DNA of 64,000 bases from Cliona cf. orientalis (lineage: Eukaryota; Porifera; Demospongiae; Clionaida; Clionaidae), in NCBI GenBank assembly GCA_963930775.1, contig OZ005697.1:7524292-7588291 (forward strand). The letters run 5' to 3'. Shown here piece after piece: positions 4,450 to 64,000 of the stretch; the stretch's first letter is position 1, and each line of letters starts with the position of its first letter. The position numbers and the translations under genes were made by a program. The notes beneath the pieces were generated by a model. The model was not told the DNA's origin. It worked only from the letters and a program-made list of their open reading frames with translations, and ran no database searches.

Positions 4450-4799
4450 GACAGTGGAAAACCTTTGGATGTTGAAGAAACCTCTGACTCTGAGAATGAG
4501 TTGGACTCAGCTGGTGAGACAAGTCACGATGAGCAGTCAGCTAGGCTCTTCAGATAGTGAACAACAGATCATGCCAACTATAGCCAATGACAGCCTTTCA
4601 GAAGATGACTGTGTAGCTTAGTAGCGCTTGTCATAATTCATTCAGCTAGTGTGTTATTGTGTACAATTCGCGTTGTAAATGATCACGTTATCAATAATAA
4701 TATTCATAAACCACTACGCGTCACACAAAACCACGTGCTTGTTTGGGCGCGTCATTGGTGGTTTGTAGTTGTGGGTTACTCCCAACATTCCAGAGTACC

Positions 4800-5219
4800 C
4801 TATCTAGGAGGTCTTAGCGTAGACTGAATGGACAGATCGAACGAAATCGGAGTCAACTTCAAGTCGTTCCTAACGTTGAGACCGAAAGCGACACTGTCAA
4901 TCAACGAACTGAAACTGAAACTGTGCCCGAAACCCCTCGTCGAATCATGACCAGATCTAGAACTGGTACAGTTGTCTCAAAGCCAGATAGACTTACACAG
5001 CAAGTGTGAAACTGACTTAAAAGGGGAGATGTGGCATAACTGTTAATGATATTCATATATATATGTTCATTTCCTGTCAGTTTGTTTCCTGTCTAGGTGT
5101 AATTAGCATATGTATTGTCTGGTGTATATAAAGTGTATGCATGCATGCAAATCTCAGTTGTATATCAATCATACAATCTCATAACAAGCTATCTCTGTGC
5201 GTGGGCGCTAAACGCTACA
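4800..5219 (+). mobile_element. 3' end of a Ty3/gypsy-like retroelement with one LTR (fossil)
   Basis: Seen: a charged tail resembling the C-terminus of gypsy-type integrases (RRIMTRSRTGTVVSKP near 4943-4993), then a purine-rich tract (about 5020-5029) directly followed by an LTR-like sequence of about 190 bp that starts TGTGGCATAAC (5030) and ends CGCTACA (5219). The LTR holds a TATATAA-like box near 5127. Known: the order integrase tail, polypurine tract, LTR is typical of the 3' end of LTR elements. No 5' LTR or other pol part is recognised in the window, so this is a broken remnant. Target-site duplication not determined. Confidence 0.6.
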
Positions 5220-5636
5220 ATAGGTTGCATCATAATTTCATCATAGATTACACTACAATTACCTCATAACCACAAAAAAGTAAATTGCTACTGGGGAGAT
5301 AATTTTAGTGATAAAAAATCGAATCCAGGTTGCTGGCTTGAGCCACCAACATCAGAATGTGGGGGTCATGGCTCAGGTGTTAGGATGCTGGTGACTCATG
5401 CAAGCCAGCGCTAGCAATCTCTGTTATATACCTGCTGCCGCAAGGTTAAAATATTCAATTTTTGATGTAAAAAAATTATCATCAACTAGAAACAAGTGCA
5501 CATGTACAATGAGGAAATTTAAATAGAAAAGTGAATAATGTTTTTTCTCAAATCATAAAAATGTCATAAGTAGCTATAGCAGAACATTAATTTTATAGGT
5601 GATATATACAAAAGGAGATATGCACACTAAGTACTC
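5220..5636. other. Intergenic, with an imperfect hairpin at about 5329-5412
   Basis: AT-rich spacer downstream of the death-domain exon. The stretch GCTGGCTTGAGCCACCAACATC near 5332 pairs imperfectly with GGATGCTGGTGACTCATGCA near 5383. No gene seen. Confidence 0.4.
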
Positions 5637-50223: not shown

Positions 50224-51405
50224 TAGTCTCATGCCCAGCCTCTTTATCGCACGCGGAAAAAGAGTCTGGTGAAACACGTATTCAATATTGGTTCCATACG
50301 TACGTGACATATTCTCACATGGGCACAATGAATATCATTATAAGCGATGGCGCAATCACTGTTTAACATTATTAATAATTCGCGCAAAGTGTTTGAAAAG
50401 CACCTACCGTAGTCTATGGCGCCAGCGGGATCCTTGGACAGTGGAGTCCGAGTGCTATGCTTATCTCGTTGCCTGATTTGTACCCAAAAGGACGGTGGTA
50501 AACAGAGCCGGAGCCAGCATTTATTAAGTGGTACGGCCATTAAAATTATTCAAAGCATTATTATTATGTAGCGGGAGAAGATGTCTCTCCTTCCACACAG
50601 AGCTCAAGGGTATTATATTATAATATGGTAGCGAAATGCACTAATAAAAATATTATGACTACATAGATCATTAGAGCATGCGTCAGACTCCATGGTTGCA
50701 ACTTTTTGATCACGTACAAGGGTGGTTATGATGTCAAATCTGTTTATACCTAGCTACTACTACGTGTGTTGCATACTCCTGGCTCTAACAAATGGCTGTA
50801 ATAGATGACAGCACAATAGCTAATATCACAATGATCTGATCACAGCTGCATTTGCAGCTGACCTGACACTACACTGCACGTTTTGCACACGCCATGCAAG
50901 ACAAATGGTGTACACGCCATGCAAGACAAATGGGGTATAGCTATAGGGTTTACAGCACAATATCAACAATGATCTGATGATCACAGCTGCATTTGCAGCT
51001 GACCTGACACTACACCACGTTTTGCATACGCCATGCAAGACAAATGGGGTATAGCTATAGGGTTTACAGCACAATAGCTATCAACAATAATCTGGTGCTA
51101 TAGCTGCATTTGCAGCTGAACTGACACTACACTGCACGTTTTGCATGCTAGCATGATTCAAACGTGGGATAGCTTCGATGATCGCTTGCTGAATGTCAGT
51201 CTAGCTGTCCAACAACTACATGTAGCCATCTCCTACAAGTAAAGTGCAAAGTACATGGTGAAGCATCGCAATCTCTTCTTGATGATGTGGCACCGTTCTG
51301 CAATCTGATTGGACGCGGCCAATCTTGCCGCGCGGAACCAAAATTGAATATGCGTTTCACCAGACTCTTTCTCCACGTGCGATAAAGAGGCTGGGCACGA
51401 GACTA
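50224..51405. mobile_element. Non-autonomous element with ends of about 63 bp (TAGTCTCGTGCCCAGCC)
   Basis: TAGTCTCATGCCCAGCCTCT at the left and AGAGGCTGGGCACGAGACTA at the right, the match continuing through TTTATCGCACG, AGAGTCTGGTGAAAC and ATTCAATWTTGGTTCC. No transposase. The interior holds tandem repeats at 50831-51140. Confidence 0.85.
50831..51140. repeat. Tandem repeat, about three units of 120-140 bp
   Basis: Each unit contains CAGCTGCATTTGCAGCTGAC, CTGACACTACAC, CACGTTTTGCA, CGCCATGCAAGACAAATG and GGTTTACAGCACAATA. The first 20-mer is itself nearly palindromic. Confidence 0.85.
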
Positions 51406-51734
51406 CAGGGAGGCAATCCATAGAGAAATGGTCAATTGACACCACCACGGACCCCTTTGCCGATGTAGAAGGCTACAGCTTGTTCTAGAAGACTGCTAAG
51501 TATTTAGTTACTTAGAATGAGTCGTGAGACATGTTTAAATGCTAATGTACTTTTCAAATAGTAGGTGTGGTACGGCTACTATTCAAGAACAGCAGCTATT
51601 AATTTTCGTTCAATACTTCCGGAGATGCGGCGACTAATCGAGAGAGGCATCTGTTCGAGTGAATACGGTAGTTAGAGAACCGAGTGCTACCAAACCTTAA
51701 ATTAATATAGCCACTATCAGAAACTCCAGCATAT

Positions 51735-53152
51735 TAAGGTACCATTAAGTTGCGTGGGCGTGAGGTGGGGGATATGACACCTAAACCACATCAAAGTCAT
51801 TAGTGAGGTGCATGCTGTGTAACCACGCCCTTTTAATTGCACAGGTCTCAGGGGTGTGGCTGCTAGAGCCGGAAGTGTTCATTTAATATCCTCCATGGAC
51901 CGGAAGCCGAGCCGGAAGGGAGGGGCCAGGCCACGCCCAAAACAGCCCCACCCTGTTCCCCAAGGACCACCATTCTCAATCAAGTGCCTACTAACCACCG
52001 GATGTCCACCGGAAGCCCACAATCAATCCCAATTAAAACACACAGCTTCCTCAAGGCCAAAACACACACAAACACTTGGAGGCCGTTCTGCCACACCGCC
52101 CACGCAAGAGCTCACCTCATTTCCTGTGTGGGCGGGGCAACAACACGTCATCGCAACCACATCCGCTTCAAACCATCGTCAGCTTCCGTCCAGCCGTACA
52201 GGCCCCTCGATCGCACCGCCGTACAGTGCCTTATTAACAGACATGGCCTCACCTTTGACCTCCTGCCACGCCCCCAAAGCCTCCTCGCGGGGTTCAAAGG
52301 TCACCACCGCTTCCGGGACACGCCCACCTATCGCCGAGGCCAAGTCCCAGGCGCCGATGTCCAAGCACTGGCCCGTGAAGCCACGCCCAATCGGAAGCAA
52401 TAAAACCTGCATTAACGCACACGCACACACTCCACACAGTGCCAGGAACACGCCCACACGCTTAATTAGGCCTATTTAGCTTTTTTTTTTTTTTTTTTTT
52501 TTTTTTCAAGGCGACCTGAACACTAAGCAGAAAAAAAAATTGTCCAAAAACCACCATATAGACGAGCTGGGTGCATAGTGGAACCATACAATGCAAGCAG
52601 GCAACCTAAATTTCAAAAAAATTGGTAAAGGTCGTCACGTTTATGTGCGCGCGTGGCCCCGCCCCTCACGTAGCGCGTGGGCGGAAACATTGCAAACACA
52701 TGGCTTCCCTGTACAAACATATGGGGAAACTTCAAAGGGCCGTAACTTTGATTCTAAAGCGTGAATCAAAATTCCTGAAGGTCAAATCTCTGCATTCGAT
52801 CCATTCTGCGCGCCGGTGCAAAAATTATGTCACCAAGTGCTCCCAGTTCCCCCCTGAATTAATTAATTAAAAATCTTTTTTTTTTTCTACTTAGTGTTTA
52901 ATTTGTCGTTGCGGTTAATAGTTAAGCAAGAATGCTTTGATCTTGCTTTGATGTGGGCAATTACCGGCCTTTTCTTCAGGGGCCACTTCCGGTCGCTAAT
53001 TACACGCGCATAATCATCCCTGGCCGATTCTGGACACGCCCACCTTCGACCAAAAGCACTCGTATGGCCTCTTCGGCCACGCCCCTTCACGATTCGCTAA
53101 TTGAATTAGCCATTCCTGACGCTCACGCCCACGCAATTAAATGGTACCTTAA
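51735..53152. mobile_element. GC-rich non-autonomous element (TTAAGGTACCATT ends) with a nested foldback
   Basis: TTAAGGTACCATTAAGTTGC at the left and, on the other strand at the right, TTAAGGTACCATTTAATTGC, both continuing GTGGGCGTGAG. The left interior (51.85-52.45 kb) is unusually GC-rich for the window and is full of CCACGCCC. A second inverted pair, AACACTAAGCAGAAAAAAAA (52519) against its complement ending at about 52903, marks a nested element of about 390 bp next to a long T run (52480-52506). Confidence 0.7.
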
Positions 53153-53269
53153 TTTAGTCTCATGGGTCATGGTTGGCAAGCAGCTGTAATATATTTAATA
53201 GCTATATCAGGGCTTAAAAGGTGTCTAATGTGTTTTGCCAGTAATACCTCAATGATGCCCTTGTGTCCT

Positions 53270-56260: not shown

Positions 56261-57457
56261 GTCATCTTATTAATAGTGACCGTGTTTTGTGTTGTAGCTA
56301 TTATAAGATTGCAGTGATGGTTAATTCCATGAAGTGAATACTTGGACTAGTACCTGCTCCCCCATAATTATTATGTATCTTTATGCAAAGATACCTACAA
56401 TAATAATTATACGATTACACTATGCAACAGTTATAATATAGTGTATACGTTTGTTCGAGATTTTATATCTAGACTAGCAGAGACAGCTAAAAACAGATTT
56501 AGCTAGTATTATCTTACTAGATGACTGATATATGTAGCTAGTGTAATAATTATTTACTTCCTTGTATCAGGTTAGCTATTAATGATTATTGTATCATTCA
56601 TGCATTAACTATGATTTCCTGTTTCTGGTTTTTGTAGGGCATTGCGCCTTGGCGCAACCGGCCACATTGTCTTTAGCGCCCTTGCGCGTCGGACTCTTTG
56701 TTTTGTGTTTCTCATAATATGTGAGTAGCTACTGTGTGTGTATGTATCTATTCGGCATTTCCGTATCTTGAGTCTCAATAATAATAATATTTTTATGCTG
56801 AGATCGCCACCTAGGGCCCATCAAACTACATTGTTAGTTTCTCGTCCACCCGTTTATATATTTCTATGCGGGCGGGCGCATTATTCAATATTATATATGG
56901 CATTTTGAGGGTGTGGTTTCCCGGAACCGCCCAAATAATTAGCAAAAAAGAGGTGTGGCTGGTGTTTCAAGGCAATAATGAAGGCAGATGCGGTAGGTAA
57001 AAACGGGCAAGTGGATTTAACGGAAACTGACGAAAACGGAAACGAAAACGAACGCGAAAACGAAAACGAAAAGGGAAATGGTCGTCAAGAAGGTTACAAA
57101 TTTGGTATAGGTCGACAACCTTATAAGCCTACTTTATCATGCGAGATAGTGTGGTGCATGTGGTGCATCCAGAGACTTGTCAAGGCAGGCTGCTCATACC
57201 AGCTATTATGAATATAATATCCTGGGCCAACATAGGCTGAAAGTTTGCCTGTCTGGAGTCCGGCAGGACCTTCCTGATCTTTGTAGCTATTTTACCAAGT
57301 GGCTATAGCTATCTGACAAGGGATTGAATGTCTATTCGTCTATGATAATTTGCACTGTCAGATGCAGTTATTATGTTATGTCAGATGTTAACTTTTTAAC
57401 TTTATAATTATTATTGATAAGCCAGGGGTGGATAGCTGGTAACATGCTGGTAGCACG
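56261..57457. other. Spacer, no firm gene
   Basis: Holds an open stretch at 56978-57211 dominated by AACGAAAACG-type simple repeats (ENENERENENEKGN), judged low-complexity, and a GCGCAA/TTGCGC-rich palindromic patch at about 56640-56690. Confidence 0.5.
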
Positions 57458-57532
57458 TAGCCTCGTCCCCAGGCCACTCCCATTTTTTCAATGTTGCATT
57501 GAAAACATGGGAGTGGCCTGGGGACGAGGCTA
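57458..57532. repeat. Foldback hairpin, about 26-bp arms
   Basis: TAGCCTCGTCCCCAGGCCAC..TCCCAT pairs with ATGGGA..GTGGCCTGGGGACGAGGCTA; a small inner stem CAATG..CATTG caps it. A half-copy (GGGGATGAGGCT) follows at about 57610. Confidence 0.85.
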
Positions 57533-57804
57533 GGTAGCACGTACGCCATGAGAGTCATGGCCCACCTAGCTTTTATAAGCTGAGTGAATCTGGGAGGGCA
57601 CCCCGGGTCTGGGGATGAGGCTGGACTAGATGCGTCACTGATGCCCTGTTATGGGATTCTACAATCGCCTGGAGTTAGTAGATACCTTCAACTAAATACA
57701 TGTAGCTAGCTTTATCATAGGTCAGTAGAGGACTCATGATCAGATGAGGTCAAATATTGTTGAGTATCTGGTCATAGTTCTGTAATATATTGAAGTAGCT
57801 AATC

Positions 57805-57869: not shown

Positions 57870-57892
57870 AGTACTGTTTAGGGGTTGGTATA

Positions 57893-58352
57893 AGGTTACT
57901 TTTTAAACTATATGACCCCTAACTTTATGGGTCTTTTTTATGTGACGGTGACCCCTAATATTATGGGACTATCTTATGTGCTTTCTTATATGGGTCTTTC
58001 TTATGTACAGAGAACCCTAACATTATGGATCTTTCTTATGTAGAGTGACCCCTTTTTAATATGGGACTATCTTATGTGCAATTACTAAAATAAATTACAG
58101 AAATCTCCCCATGCCCCACCCACTTCACATCTTATGTGCCATGGTTTAATGACAGGAGCCATACCCTTTAGGCTCCACCTACTCCACATAAGAGGGACTC
58201 ATATTAATATTATGCTTTTATAATGGGACATTCTTATGTAGAATGATGGGACGCAATCCAGGCCACCTTCAAAGCTCCACCCACTCTACTTAAACGAGAC
58301 CCATACTGATGGATGCTCTACAGTGGAAAATTTATATGTCTCTCTTTCAGAT
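57893..58352. repeat. Left inverted repeat of the helicase cassette, with short subrepeats
   Basis: 58094-58352 matches the reverse complement of 63699-64000 with high identity (shared: ATTACAGAAATCTCCCCATG, CCATGGTTTAATGACAGGAG, GGCTCCACCTACTCCACATA, GATGCTCTACAGTGGAAAAT). The right copy has an extra block of about 45 bases. Farther left, 57893-58080 carries TCTTATGTG / GACCCCTAA subrepeats that may be the outer part of the repeat; its partner would lie beyond the window. Confidence 0.85.
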
Positions 58353-58789
58353 CAAACTGAGATCATGATGTACCTTATAGCTATAGCAACTTCTGCATAA
58401 TGCAGCTGATATTTTGTGTAGGTTATACTAAATGGTAGCTACAACAATAATATAATAATTATAGAAATTGTCATGCACTATAATTATTATTATGATTTTA
58501 CTGTCTGTGTTAGCTACATAAATTTGATCACAATAATCTTTATAATTGCAGACATGTAGTTATACCAGGTCCTGCTGTCAATTTATATTAGAAATCACAG
58601 TAATAACCAATAAAAGAAAATTGTTATTGGTGTATAGCAGATATCGATCATTGATGAGATTATAATGAAATTGAATAGCTATAATTATGATTTGGATAGT
58701 GATGATTTATGATTTGGATAATGATGATCATATGCATGATTTACTATAATAAATGATCAGGCAGCTCGTTTGCTAGCTACTCTCTACTC
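58353..58789. other. Spacer between left inverted repeat and helicase stop
   Basis: AT-rich, with GATTTGGATAATGATGAT-like repeats near 58688-58735. Presumed 3' untranslated region and terminator of the helicase gene; no polyadenylation site assigned. Confidence 0.45.
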
Positions 58790-61700
58790 TAGTCCAAAAG
58801 TTTGTAGTCCTTATCATTCTGTGGATCCGTGGTAAAATCTTCAGTACCATCTTCAAATTTGGTGACCCATAATTGTGTTTTAGGATCTTTCCCAGTAATT
58901 ATTCCCGTATACCACCTCCCATCGTCAAAGAGAACACTAACTCTTCTCCCAAAATAGCTCTGTACAAGGCTTTGGGAATTCTGTGGTTGATCACGATCTA
59001 TCAGATAAACATGAATGCACCTTATAGTGACATCAGCTTATTACTACCATTCCAATTCTGATACAATAAGTTTTATGCGTTCACTGGAAACTATGGATCG
59101 GCCATTCAATGTGTGCATTCATAACAATTTTTCCCTGTGTATATATATGCATAACACAGCTATGCTATAATATTCATATCGAGCTATGGCAATTAACGAA
59201 TGGACGCTATAGATGAATTAAGGCCATGCAGATAGATTATCACAATAATTATTATGTCCATGCGAGGTATTACCTCTAGTGAGTTTTCCTTTTCCTTTTC
59301 CTTTTGATTTACTTGCTTTTCCTAATTATCATTATTATTAGATAAGTTCCATTAGTTACTATAATTATCATACCTTTCTGATTATTCTCCTTGTTTTCAA
59401 AATCACTGTCACTATCTGGACATCCACGTGGTTGAGAATGATGTACCTTTCGAGATCGTTTCACTGATGATGCTATAATAATTAATAATAATTAATTCAT
59501 TGGTATGTTGGCTGTTGCATTTATTACGCTGTTTAGGTATGTTGTTAAATGAATAGGATTACCTCCATCACTTAAGGCTTCATCACTCTTGTCAAGGGCA
59601 TCAAATGCCGAATCCAATGTGTCAATGATTGAAGCACCACTTGGTCCAGCTGCTGCTGTAATCTCTTTTACGGCCTTCCTGTAAATATGCTTTACCCTGT
59701 CAGGATGAGCTGCAGTTGATACTGCCATTGGCATAAAACCTGTTCCTATACCTGCAATAACCAATACATAGGTATATAATATCACAATCGACTCATAACA
59801 TCGTGTTGTAATTATTATTATTACCCAGATTCAGTTGGCTAGGAGTGATGCTGGGGTTACACTGAACAGCGTGTTTCACTGACTCGTGAACAATATCTGG
59901 AACCTTGCTGGGTTTAGGTAATGGATGATTGTGAAGATTATTTCTTGTGGTAGCTATTGAACACCCCATCCTTAGTTATCCCAGTAATCCAACGTTCACC
60001 GTTCTCAACATGATTCTGAGGGTAGACATAAACAACATACACAGGACAGCTGCCAGAAGGAATCATCTCAGCTGTTGGATGATTTGGACACTTTTTGGCT
60101 GCTCTGGATCCAGCAAAAGTGCAACTACCTACACTACATTCAAGCACTCCCTTGCAAGCTGCGTAACGAATATGAACATTTTGCTTCTCTCCATTAATGG
60201 CAACTTCTCGAAGATTATTGTTGTAGTTACTCTTAGATAACTGATTTTCACTATATAATAAATGGTGATTTTCTCCTGTGAAATGTGGTAGCACTTGAAT
60301 GTTCGATACATGACCCATTCGTGGAGGAGTTTGGCTAGCATTCGGCTCACAAGTATCTTCTTGATCAGAAAATACACCAGGATACTGATACTCCTTGGTA
60401 GATTCAACTTCAAACCAACTCTCAGAGGATAGTAGAAGACCTTCAATGATAGGCATTAGGTTACTTCCTCCACAAGTGCGCTTCTTCTTTGATGGTGCTT
60501 TTTCTTCTTCCTGACACATTCTGGGAGCGTTCCACTCCATTTTTCGTTCCTTGACTTCTATACCTTTCTCTGTGAGCGCCAGAGTAGCTGAAGTCTGGTC
60601 GCGAAAAAGGCCTGAGGCTCTAATGGTAGAAAATTGCAGAGCTAGTAGACCATCACCGATAGGAGCGTGAATGACATCTGTCCAAAATTCTTGGCTTTTT
60701 CCTCTTCCCTTTCCATGGGCTTTATCATTTTTATTTGGAAGTCGGAGCTTTTTGTTGCCAGTACCACAGATCCATAGACATGTCTATAAGAAAGGACATG
60801 TGTATCCCATGATCGCTAAAATTTAATTATGGGGAGTATCACCTTGTGAATCCCATGGTTTGGCAAATCACTGATGGCATCAGCAATGATGGAGAACTCT
60901 TGGGTCCTGGAAACAAGTTGACTATTATCTCCTTGAATCTGGAGCCTTTCACAGTTATCACAAAGAGCACCACCAAGGCTAGTGCAGCAGGTATCAGCAG
61001 TGATATCTTCTCCAAAATACTGTAAAATGGTCTTCCTTCTGTATGATTTTGTCAACAGCAACCTATAATAGTGGTACATACAATATGTCAAATTACAAAT
61101 TATTTACAGATATGTAGAATAAAAGCTCACTTCCATAGATCAGCAAATTTCCTTTTCATTATATCCTGACCAATATCGTCTTTACCTCTCAAATAAAATT
61201 GGAGTATTTGGAAGTTAACATCAAACAATATGGTTGCTGCATATGGAGGGATATTCAACTATGGGTTAGATCATAATAATATGCAGCATACAGTTACCTG
61301 TACACTGGTTGCCATCCCTTCCTCCTCTACCAGCTTCTTGTACCCGTGCTTCGACACTTGCAATTGGTGGCACACCAACATGGAAAACAAAGCGAACATT
61401 TGGCTTATTCACTCCTAGTCCAAATGCTGATGTGGCAACAACAAGGCTTATCTCATCATCTGCCCAGTTTGACAAGACAGCTTTCTTGTCAGATTTACTG
61501 GTGTCTTCTCCTGTGTATGCTGCTGCCTTAATCTCACTGTGCTGGTTGAATGAAGTGGTCAAGTCGAGTGCTGACTTCTTAGAATCAACATATATTATGG
61601 TGGGAAGATTTCCTATCTCCTGTGCCATTTCTTCAACGAATGGTGTCCAGTAAGCATCTACACATCAGCACATTATCATGAATTATTGGATAAGTAAGGT

Positions 61701-63205
61701 GCTAATAATATAACCTGCTGACATCTTTCCATTAGTTACAGATGCCGGTAGTTGTCCACCAAATTTGCTTCGTCGGGTATGCAAAGAGATATTTGGCCTA
61801 TCAATGGATGCTTTCAACACTGCCGGATTTTGAAAGGAATCTTTGAGCTTTTGCAGTGTATCGGGTGGTGCTGTGGCCGTAAGAGCCATAATAGGAACAT
61901 TCGGCAGATCGATGGTGATGCACTGAAGATTCTTGAAGCTTGGTCTGCAGAGTATGTACTACAATTATGGCTAATTGAGTTTAATAACATTAGACTAATA
62001 AGTGCATACCTGAAATGTTCCCATTCAAACAAGAGGTGGGCTTCATCAATTGCAATAAGGCTAATCTTTCCATTTTCTGCGAGCTCCTTTAGTATAACAA
62101 GCCTTCGACCTGAAGAAGGACCAAAGATATACTCTGGTGTAAGGTAGACAATTAGCGGTTGTGAGGGATAGCAACGAAGATCATCTATGGTCCCTCCAGC
62201 ATCACCTAATACCACTGCAGATATTCCTATCGACTGTAGCTGCTTTGCTTGGTCATGCATCAAGGCAACGGTAGGGGTAAAAACAAAAACTTGCTTCTTG
62301 GACTGAAGGGCTACAAGTTGGTAGCACAATGATTTTCCTTTTCCTGTTGGTTGGATAACAAGAGTGTTACGCGATCGGATAGCTTTTTCTGCAGCTTCCA
62401 GCTGAAATGGGTAAGGTGAGGTGATGCCATAGTTCTTATTGGCCAGTCCATACAACAATGTCTGAATATCTTCCTGTGATAGTGAGTCATCTATTAGAAT
62501 AGACAATCATTACATAATTATTTCTCTCGGTACATAGTACCATAAATTACCATGAATGCCACTAAGTGTAACATCACCCATTCCACCACCATCATCATCA
62601 AAGAACGAGGTTACCTCACTCTCAGAGAGACTGTACTGTAACATGTCTTTCATTTCAGTATAAAAATAATATTATTGTAATATTATAATAAATTAATTGT
62701 ACAGCATACCATTATAATCACCATCATCACAGCTCAGGGATTTGTCATCATCCATAGCTTGACTCTCTCCCACTATCTCATCACTCATTAAGTCTGTATG
62801 AGATAGCCCTCTCTCCTGGAACAGTGCAGTTGCTTGCATAGATGGTACATTGCCTGGTGAAGACTCCCTAGAAAGGAATATAAAACTTAATGCAACCGCG
62901 CCCCACTCCACACCCCCATGATTAATAATTATGACAATCATGATAGTATGCTATACACAGCTATAGATCTAGCTAGTAGCTAATTAGCTAAACATGAAAA
63001 AAGCAAAAGCTAGCCATATACCTGCTCTAATTTATCCATTAGATGCTGCTTGCTGTGTCAGTGGCTCTCTTCTGTGTTCTTGACGATCTTGTCGCCTATG
63101 GAAGAACCCATCACAGTCGACACAAAATTGGTCTCTTCCGCTACCACAGTCCAAACAATTGACAACAGCAGTTAGGTCACAAAGGTAGCACATCTGGGTG
63201 TCCAT
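58790..63205 (-). CDS. RecQ-type helicase with B-box exon and Tudor-like tail, inside inverted repeats
   Basis: Exons on the minus strand: 63205 to about 63022 (B-box-like: MDTQMCYLCDLTAVVNCLDC, then FCVDCDGFFHRR), 62867-62710, 62646-62551, 62490-62010 (QPTGKGKSLCYQL, IDEAHLL), 61944-61715 (MALTATAP), 61657-61298 (IIYVDSKKSA, TSAFGLGVNKPNV, EAGRGGRDG), 61236-61131, 61062-60843 (RRKTILQYFGE..CC..CDNC, RecQ zinc domain), 60783 to about 59825, 59751-59563, 59472-59374, 59321-59274, 58997-58790 (FGRRVSVLFDDGRWYTGIIT, Tudor-like). Helicase junctions agree in phase. Known: RecQ enzymes unwind DNA 3' to 5'. Two breaks: exon 1 meets TAA before its donor, and the frame shifts at a GGGG near 59960 before NLHNHPLPKPSKVPD. 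The core is intact. A His/Cys-rich tail (CKGVLECSVGSCTFAGSRAA) recalls multicopy sponge and cnidarian relatives. Confidence 0.85.
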
Positions 63206-63698
63206 TGTCACACTCAGCAACTAATAGACCCGGTAACGGCTCGAGTCTGGACGAACACGTGAAATTTAGCGCCAAGCACCCTGCAAAAAGGAGGGAAGGC
63301 TGACTTTTAGAACGACTTTTTACGTTATGCGCATGCGCAGATTCATCGCGAGCATGCGCGGTGAAGTTCCAGTGATTCAACTTAATGTCTTCTCTAGTAC
63401 AACGCATAAACTTATATTTAATTAATTGACGGCCAAGTAACAATATATAACATCATTATCAATTACATTTATTGCTAGTTAGATCTACCATTGTTTGTTA
63501 GTGTTACACTCAAGCATAAAATTTAATATTATTTAAATAGACTACGTAACAATATTATTATGATTGATAGCTAATAATTTGTTATGATGAACTAGCTATA
63601 GCTATACTACTAAAGTCTTTCTTTTGAGTGAGCATAATCTTATTAGACTTGTATAGCTAGTAGCTTTCAGATTCGTCTGGAATTGGAATGGCAATTCA
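63206..63698. promoter_or_regulatory. Presumed upstream region of the helicase gene
   Basis: About 490 bases between the ATG and the right inverted repeat; a CpG-containing patch with GCATGCGC motifs (63325-63362) and then AT-rich sequence. No core promoter motif firmly identified. Confidence 0.4.
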
Positions 63699-64000
63699 CT
63701 GAAGGAGAAACATATAAATTTTCCACTGTAGAGCATCCATCAGTATGGGTCTCTTTTAAGTAGAGTGGGTGGAGCTTTGAAGGTGGATTGCGTCCCATCA
63801 TTCTGAGTGATACATAAGAATGTCCCATTATAAAAGCATAATATTAATATGAGTCCCTCTTATGTGGAGTAGGTGGAGCCTAAAGGGTATGGCTCCTGTC
63901 ATTAAACCATGGCACATAAGAATGTCCCATATTTAACTTCATAATTTATTATGGGTCACTCTTATGTGAAGTGGGTGGGGCATGGGGAGATTTCTGTAAT
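63699..64000. repeat. Right inverted repeat of the helicase cassette (runs off the window)
   Basis: Reverse complement of 58094-58352, starting at CTGAAGGAGAAACATATAAA and still matching at the last base (GGGGAGATTTCTGTAAT). The outer end is not visible. Confidence 0.85.

Follow-up and report, generated by a model that had tools for sequence, protein, structure and literature searches.

Can a helicase alone, lying between long inverted repeats, drive a transposon? The question is raised by the right-hand end of a 64,000-nucleotide stretch of the Cliona cf. orientalis genome (contig OZ005697.1; the whole stretch is called the window here), where the original prediction, made from the letters alone, described a RecQ-type helicase gene between inverted repeats as a candidate mobile element of an undescribed kind. 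We compared this element with its relatives in the genome (217 Mb in 149 contigs, in which the window is C9:7524292-7588291) and with published transposon families. With high confidence, we regard it as a non-autonomous, cut-and-paste transposon copy with an internal deletion. Its complete relatives encode a RecQ helicase fused to a DDE-like domain, and the element is most likely of the AcademH type. Read in this way, the apparent helicase-only transposon derives by deletion from a transposon with a RecQ-DDE fusion, and the apparent exception is resolved.

Results

The window element is a genuine transposon insertion. Comparison of copies revealed a sharp terminus, GGGTTGGTATAAGGTTAC, at window position 57882 and at C9:7588506, between which the helicase-bearing transposon spans 6,334 bp and runs 215 bases beyond the end of the window. 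The outer end of the left repeat had been placed at 58094, which this comparison corrects, and the right outer end was found past position 64000, where the original prediction had suggested looking. The terminal repeats of this copy, 469 and 517 bp long, are 99.1% identical over aligned bases with gaps left out, and the long, near-identical arms claimed around the helicase are confirmed (100% for 58130-58240 / 63811-63921 and 58094-58130 / 63964-64000, 97% for 58263-58350 / 63699-63786). Since the 25-base terminus had 26 matches in the genome with at most 3 mismatches and its reversed control 0, the inverted repeats are not due to chance; the terminus search scored only the best candidates, which makes the copy counts lower bounds. 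The 10-bp target TACTGTTTAG flanks the element on both sides, as also checked by script. The surrounding DNA (left of 57881 and from C9:7588507 onward) is itself a repeat family, so that its other copies serve as the empty sites that had been called for. With the joined flanks and one target copy as query, 14 of 54 match rows run unbroken through the junction (manual count), and all three of the paralogous empty sites that were retrieved contain a single copy of the target, aligned with the right flank; on their left side these sites are gapped, with only 5 bases before the target aligned at C6.

A sister copy at C1:7478198-7489167 has this helicase enclosed by the same two repeats, together with a 9-bp duplication of its own. 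The RecQ core of the sister copy (C1:7480047-7481113) is 94-98% identical to the query; between window positions 59530 and 63300 the alignment of the two copies covers 3,749 bases and shows 24 differences. A decayed RecQ version at C1:18585755-18587168 adjoins one such repeat, forming a third copy (C1:18581014). With the helicase and both repeats at two loci, each with a target duplication, and beside one repeat at a third, the claim of a mobile element is borne out. Relative to the window copy, the sister copy carries about 1.65 kb of additional DNA at element position 1644, encoding a domain that carries the motifs DVTF, VDWSS and TNGVE and resembles the C-terminal part of a 1,329-aa protein taken up below. 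DDE-like pieces are also present in the decayed third copy, and the window copy is therefore the odd one out of three. Both breakpoints at its deletion joint near 59525 are intronic and the exons on either side are kept: the window copy lost the DDE-like segment by deletion between two introns. The earlier statement that no transposase lies inside thus holds for the window copy but not for the family.

A related family retains the complete arrangement. An open frame of 1,329 aa at C4:3096494-3105971, found also at C6 and C10, encodes in order RecQ, a Cys/His zinc-finger-like part, a DDE-like part and a Tudor-like end (an order determined partly by eye). The DDE-like region of the C4 copy lies at C4:3097717-3098697. 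Pfam recognised DEAD (6.4e-26) and Helicase_C (2.4e-15) in the C4 protein, and its closest solved structures are WRN and, after it, other RecQ helicases. The ends of the C4 protein and of a C7 protein resemble by eye the Tudor-like exon of the window; Tudor_KDM3B scored 0.012 for the C4 protein, and the Pfam scan of the C7 protein gave no Tudor match. Over about 7 kb the search gives a rounded identity of 100% among the three copies, but they are not letter-identical within the compared 3,990-base stretches. Their repeats are about 404 bp long, and each of the three has a different 9-bp duplication, read by eye as TTCGCAACC, ATTTTTGTC and CACTCATCT. The genome holds several related families, one of them with three near-identical single-frame fusion copies at three target sites.

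When the genome was searched with the DDE-like part, 76 matches were obtained and grouped into 48 loci, at least 25 of which have RecQ within 6 kb on the same strand and always upstream; this linkage was counted with 68 of the 122 RecQ matches, which makes 25 a lower bound. All of the 16 DDE-like loci with the best scores are linked to RecQ. DDE-like loci lacking RecQ include C10:5803525, C6:4168279, C4:11068152 and C13:3670909, and such loci could be copies that have decayed, or could represent a lineage of the same transposase that has no helicase. Outside this genome, the 1,329-aa protein found no pattern match in a viral contig collection, and the DDE alignment gave 50 pattern matches in that collection and 46 in a genome contig collection, none of them confirmed; both collections cover viruses, bacteria and archaea, and misses there say little.

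Across four aligned members of the DDE-like domain, the residues D42, D113, C138 and H141 are invariant. A profile comparison by hhalign with two MULE loci of this genome ran in register over the first D, the second D and CxxH, without reaching significance. We consider the domain likely to be of the DDE type, judging from its motifs and from its fusion inside elements that duplicate their target. A search for DBD_Tnp_Mut (PF03108) gave no match and likewise none in the controls, and is uninformative.

Further copies indicate how the family moves. Two ends are in hand for ten copies (C1:18581014, C2:9637745 and C13:3667993 are left out of this count), and five of these show a duplication of varied sequence, 10 bp long at C9 and 9 bp at C1:7478198, C1:9103205, C19:4711383 and C16:2524446. 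Six shorter copies (C1:9103205, C2:4721594, C19:4711383, C6:2857713, C16:2524446 and C2:9637745) retain pieces near element positions 4483-4644 and 5044-5590, with helicase fragments at five of the six in the genome search with RecQ; C10:6163774 retains little beyond the repeats. The copies at C1:9103205 and C19:4711383 represent one deleted form (96.4% identity over the whole length) with different 9-bp duplications, from which it follows that copies without the full gene moved in trans. Two further loci, C1:23904300-23909300 and C3:80500-84600, are 99.95% identical to each other over 4.1 kb and carry a terminus 2 mismatches from that of the family; at C1:23909175 and C3:84473 only 31 bases are common with the element, and the six longest open frames at each went unrecognised, no family search having been made.

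In the window copy, the RecQ-like gene lies on the minus strand between the repeats (Table 1), with DEAD (1.5e-23), Helicase_C (7e-16) and RecQ_Zn_bind (6.6e-6) above the Pfam cut-off. The RecQ core and zinc domain named in the original prediction are thereby upheld, while its B-box and Tudor-like labels stay below cut-off. Likewise, one intact 14-exon gene could not be established. The 4 extra bases near 59956 shift the frame, and across this region the C4 protein gives one unbroken alignment with the sister copy but two separate pieces with the window copy; the B-box frame runs into a stop before a splice donor (by eye), leaving a candidate link to the next exon only. The zinc-finger label within the winged-helix-like exon was given by eye and no Pfam family supports it. 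The sister copy has its own 4-base frame-shifting difference, in the first helicase exon, and is interrupted by two more insertions, one near element position 1250 and one in the right repeat. Judged by their reading frames, neither copy looks able to make the full protein. Over seven exon stretches the two copies differ by 3 synonymous and 11 non-synonymous substitutions, too few to show selection. They also differ by 3-4-base insertions near window positions 62480, 62366 and 59956, which could be footprints that small insertions and excisions left behind.

Table 1. Features of the transposon within the window, with strand and supporting evidence.
Feature	Position	Strand	Evidence or remark
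Left copy of target-site duplication, TACTGTTTAG, 10 bp	57872..57881	.	right copy just beyond C9:7588506
Left terminal inverted repeat, 469 bp, terminus GGGTTGGTATAAGGTTAC	57882..58350	.	comparison with right repeat
RecQ-type helicase gene, DDE-like segment absent, frame broken relative to sister copy	58792..63205	-	Pfam and copy comparison
Tudor-like C-terminal exon	58792..58996	-	PF21743 1.1e-4, below cut-off
Joint of internal deletion	59524..59525	-	lacks about 1.65 kb that holds the DDE-like exons in the C1 sister; breakpoints in introns
4 extra bases relative to C1 sister copy, frame-shifting	59953..59956	-	copy alignment
Exon with winged-helix (RQC)-like and Cys/His zinc-finger-like part	59941..60783	-	RQC 0.0033, below cut-off
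RecQ zinc-binding exon	60842..61063	-	PF16124 6.6e-6
RecQ helicase core exons, DEAD and Helicase_C	61300..62490	-	Pfam, genome search
B-box-like open frame	63035..63205	-	PF22586 7.5e-5, below cut-off
Right terminal inverted repeat, inner 302 of 517 bp	63699..64000	.	remainder past the window, up to C9:7588506

Discussion

AcademH, of the Academ superfamily, was reportedly set out by Kojima in 2020 (Mob DNA 11:15). A RecQ helicase is reported in Academ (PMC3627910), and duplications of 9 or 10 bp in AcademH, as against 3 or 4 bp in AcademX, are tied to helicase and nuclease (PMC10045372). Shared with AcademH are the RecQ-type helicase together with a putative transposase and the 9- or 10-bp duplications; the window copy differs in being without the transposase part. 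AcademH itself is described from animals and fungi, and helicases of AcademH and KolobokH are described in fungi (PMC10799480). We use the AcademH label because RecQ, a DDE-like domain and 9-10-bp duplications match, and consider membership likely, not proven. Both the setting aside of Academ in the original prediction and its view of the kind as undescribed give way to these reports, since the element most probably adds one more member to a group that has been described before.

Several observations weigh against this assignment. The last E of the motif, E260, is kept in three of the four members, with Q instead in C11, and Pfam gives no family above cut-off for the DDE-like domain in any of the four members scanned, the best sub-cut-off scores being those of two unrelated families, DUF6981 (0.0031) and DUF7119 (0.031), both better than MULE. 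A PDB search with the domain returned two chance-level hits only. Among the ten two-ended copies, no duplication was seen at C2:4721594, C6:2857713, C10:6163774, C3:11440073 and C4:7266737. No RecQ lies within 6 kb at 23 of the 48 DDE-like loci among the RecQ matches used.

Part of this evidence also bears on the family label. The element might belong to a helicase-bearing lineage of MuDR/Mutator which gained RecQ separately, a reading that shares the internal deletion with ours and that we hold to be unlikely. Its long repeats, 9-bp duplications, zinc finger and CxxH-bearing DDE domain are Mutator traits; MULE duplications measure 8-11 bp and their repeats are commonly hundreds of bp long (PMC6446971), both of which hold for the element, and PF10551 itself matches one of the four members at 0.088 in the region of the first D. 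This score is below cut-off, however, and the MULE model does not recognise the DDE-like domain: 0 of the 58 MULE matches in the genome fall at the 48 DDE-like loci (compared by eye), and the in-register comparison with the two MULE loci is not significant (P 0.042, with 2 of 30 shuffled profiles scoring higher and a RecQ control at P 0.18). The C/DxxH motif is common to MuDR and four others (PMC10045372). The RecQ part is a further difference from Mutator-like elements, the word helicase being absent from the main text of the MULE survey (PMC6446971), whereas AcademH is already described by RecQ (PMC3627910) and 9-10-bp duplications (PMC10045372). A variant to which we assign a rather low probability would place a non-Academ, Mutator-like CxxH DDE domain between RecQ and a Tudor-like reader, with the DDE-less helicase competing with the full protein and regulating the family.

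The remaining explanations fare considerably worse. A new kind of element that is driven by its helicase and needs no transposase was suggested by the window copy, which has only the helicase gene between its repeats; the sister copy retains a DDE-like segment at the same point and the related intact frames of C4, C6 and C10 hold both domains, by which this reading is largely refuted and is left with very little probability. RecQ helicases are host genes, and an unrelated, Pack-type element could have captured one. Gene capture by MULEs is known (PMC8277862), but in the C4/C6/C10 family a single open frame encodes both RecQ and the DDE-like part, and RecQ stands upstream at all 25 linked loci, which indicates that the RecQ-DDE link is old and shared; capture, likewise put forward in the original prediction, is thus very improbable. 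Least credible of all is mobilisation of the family by the Mutator-like transposase inside the C16 copy, where a 684-aa open frame (PF20700, 1.8e-79) lies between the same repeats. This frame belongs to a separate insertion of about 2.8 kb (L019:2183-4964), which is flanked by TTAA at either end, has short inverted ends of its own (GGTGGCAAG...CTTGCCACC), is missing from the copies at C1:9103205 and C2:4721594 and represents a nested Kolobok-type element.

Two other helicase-bearing systems were considered and rejected. Helitrons also encode a helicase, which accompanies Rep and is Pif1; they are not known to have inverted repeats or target duplications. As the original prediction had recognised, Helitron does not fit, since both are present here and the helicase is RecQ-like. 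KolobokH likewise combines a RecQ helicase and a DDD/E transposase in one element, in fungi only and with RecQ downstream of the transposase domain, and Kolobok uses TTAA (PMC9587614); in the present elements RecQ is upstream (at all 25 linked loci of the 48) and the duplications are 9-10 bp of varied sequence, with no TTAA-specific 4 bp.

We propose a model for the AcademH-like reading in which complete relatives would make one protein comprising RecQ helicase, winged-helix-like part, zinc-finger-like part, DDE-type nuclease and Tudor-like end. To judge from its motifs and from the type of element, the DDE part would act as the nuclease, cutting at the termini of the long inverted repeats and joining these to the target with a 9-10-bp stagger. 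The RecQ part would probably open DNA in end processing or gap repair, and the zinc-finger-like and Tudor-like parts may bind the repeats and chromatin. The window copy could at best make a nuclease-less helicase, its frame being additionally broken, and deleted copies would be mobilised only by transposase from complete ones. A nuclease-less helicase made from deleted copies could in turn regulate the family, though the frame of the window copy is broken. This genome is a good setting in which to ask what role RecQ plays in DDE transposition.

Additional observations in the window

An Rfam search of the window gave no match. Left of the transposon, window positions 50224-51405 hold 72-bp inverted repeats (92% identity) separated by 1,038 bases that contain direct and tandem repeats, perhaps a small transposon, around which no clear target duplication was seen. 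At 51733-53153, 32-bp inverted repeats (94%) lie 1,357 bases apart with the ends ATTAAGGTACC...GGTACCTTAAT, perhaps a TTAA-target element with GG...CC termini. A hairpin with 39-base arms (95%) and a 3-base loop is located at 57455-57535.

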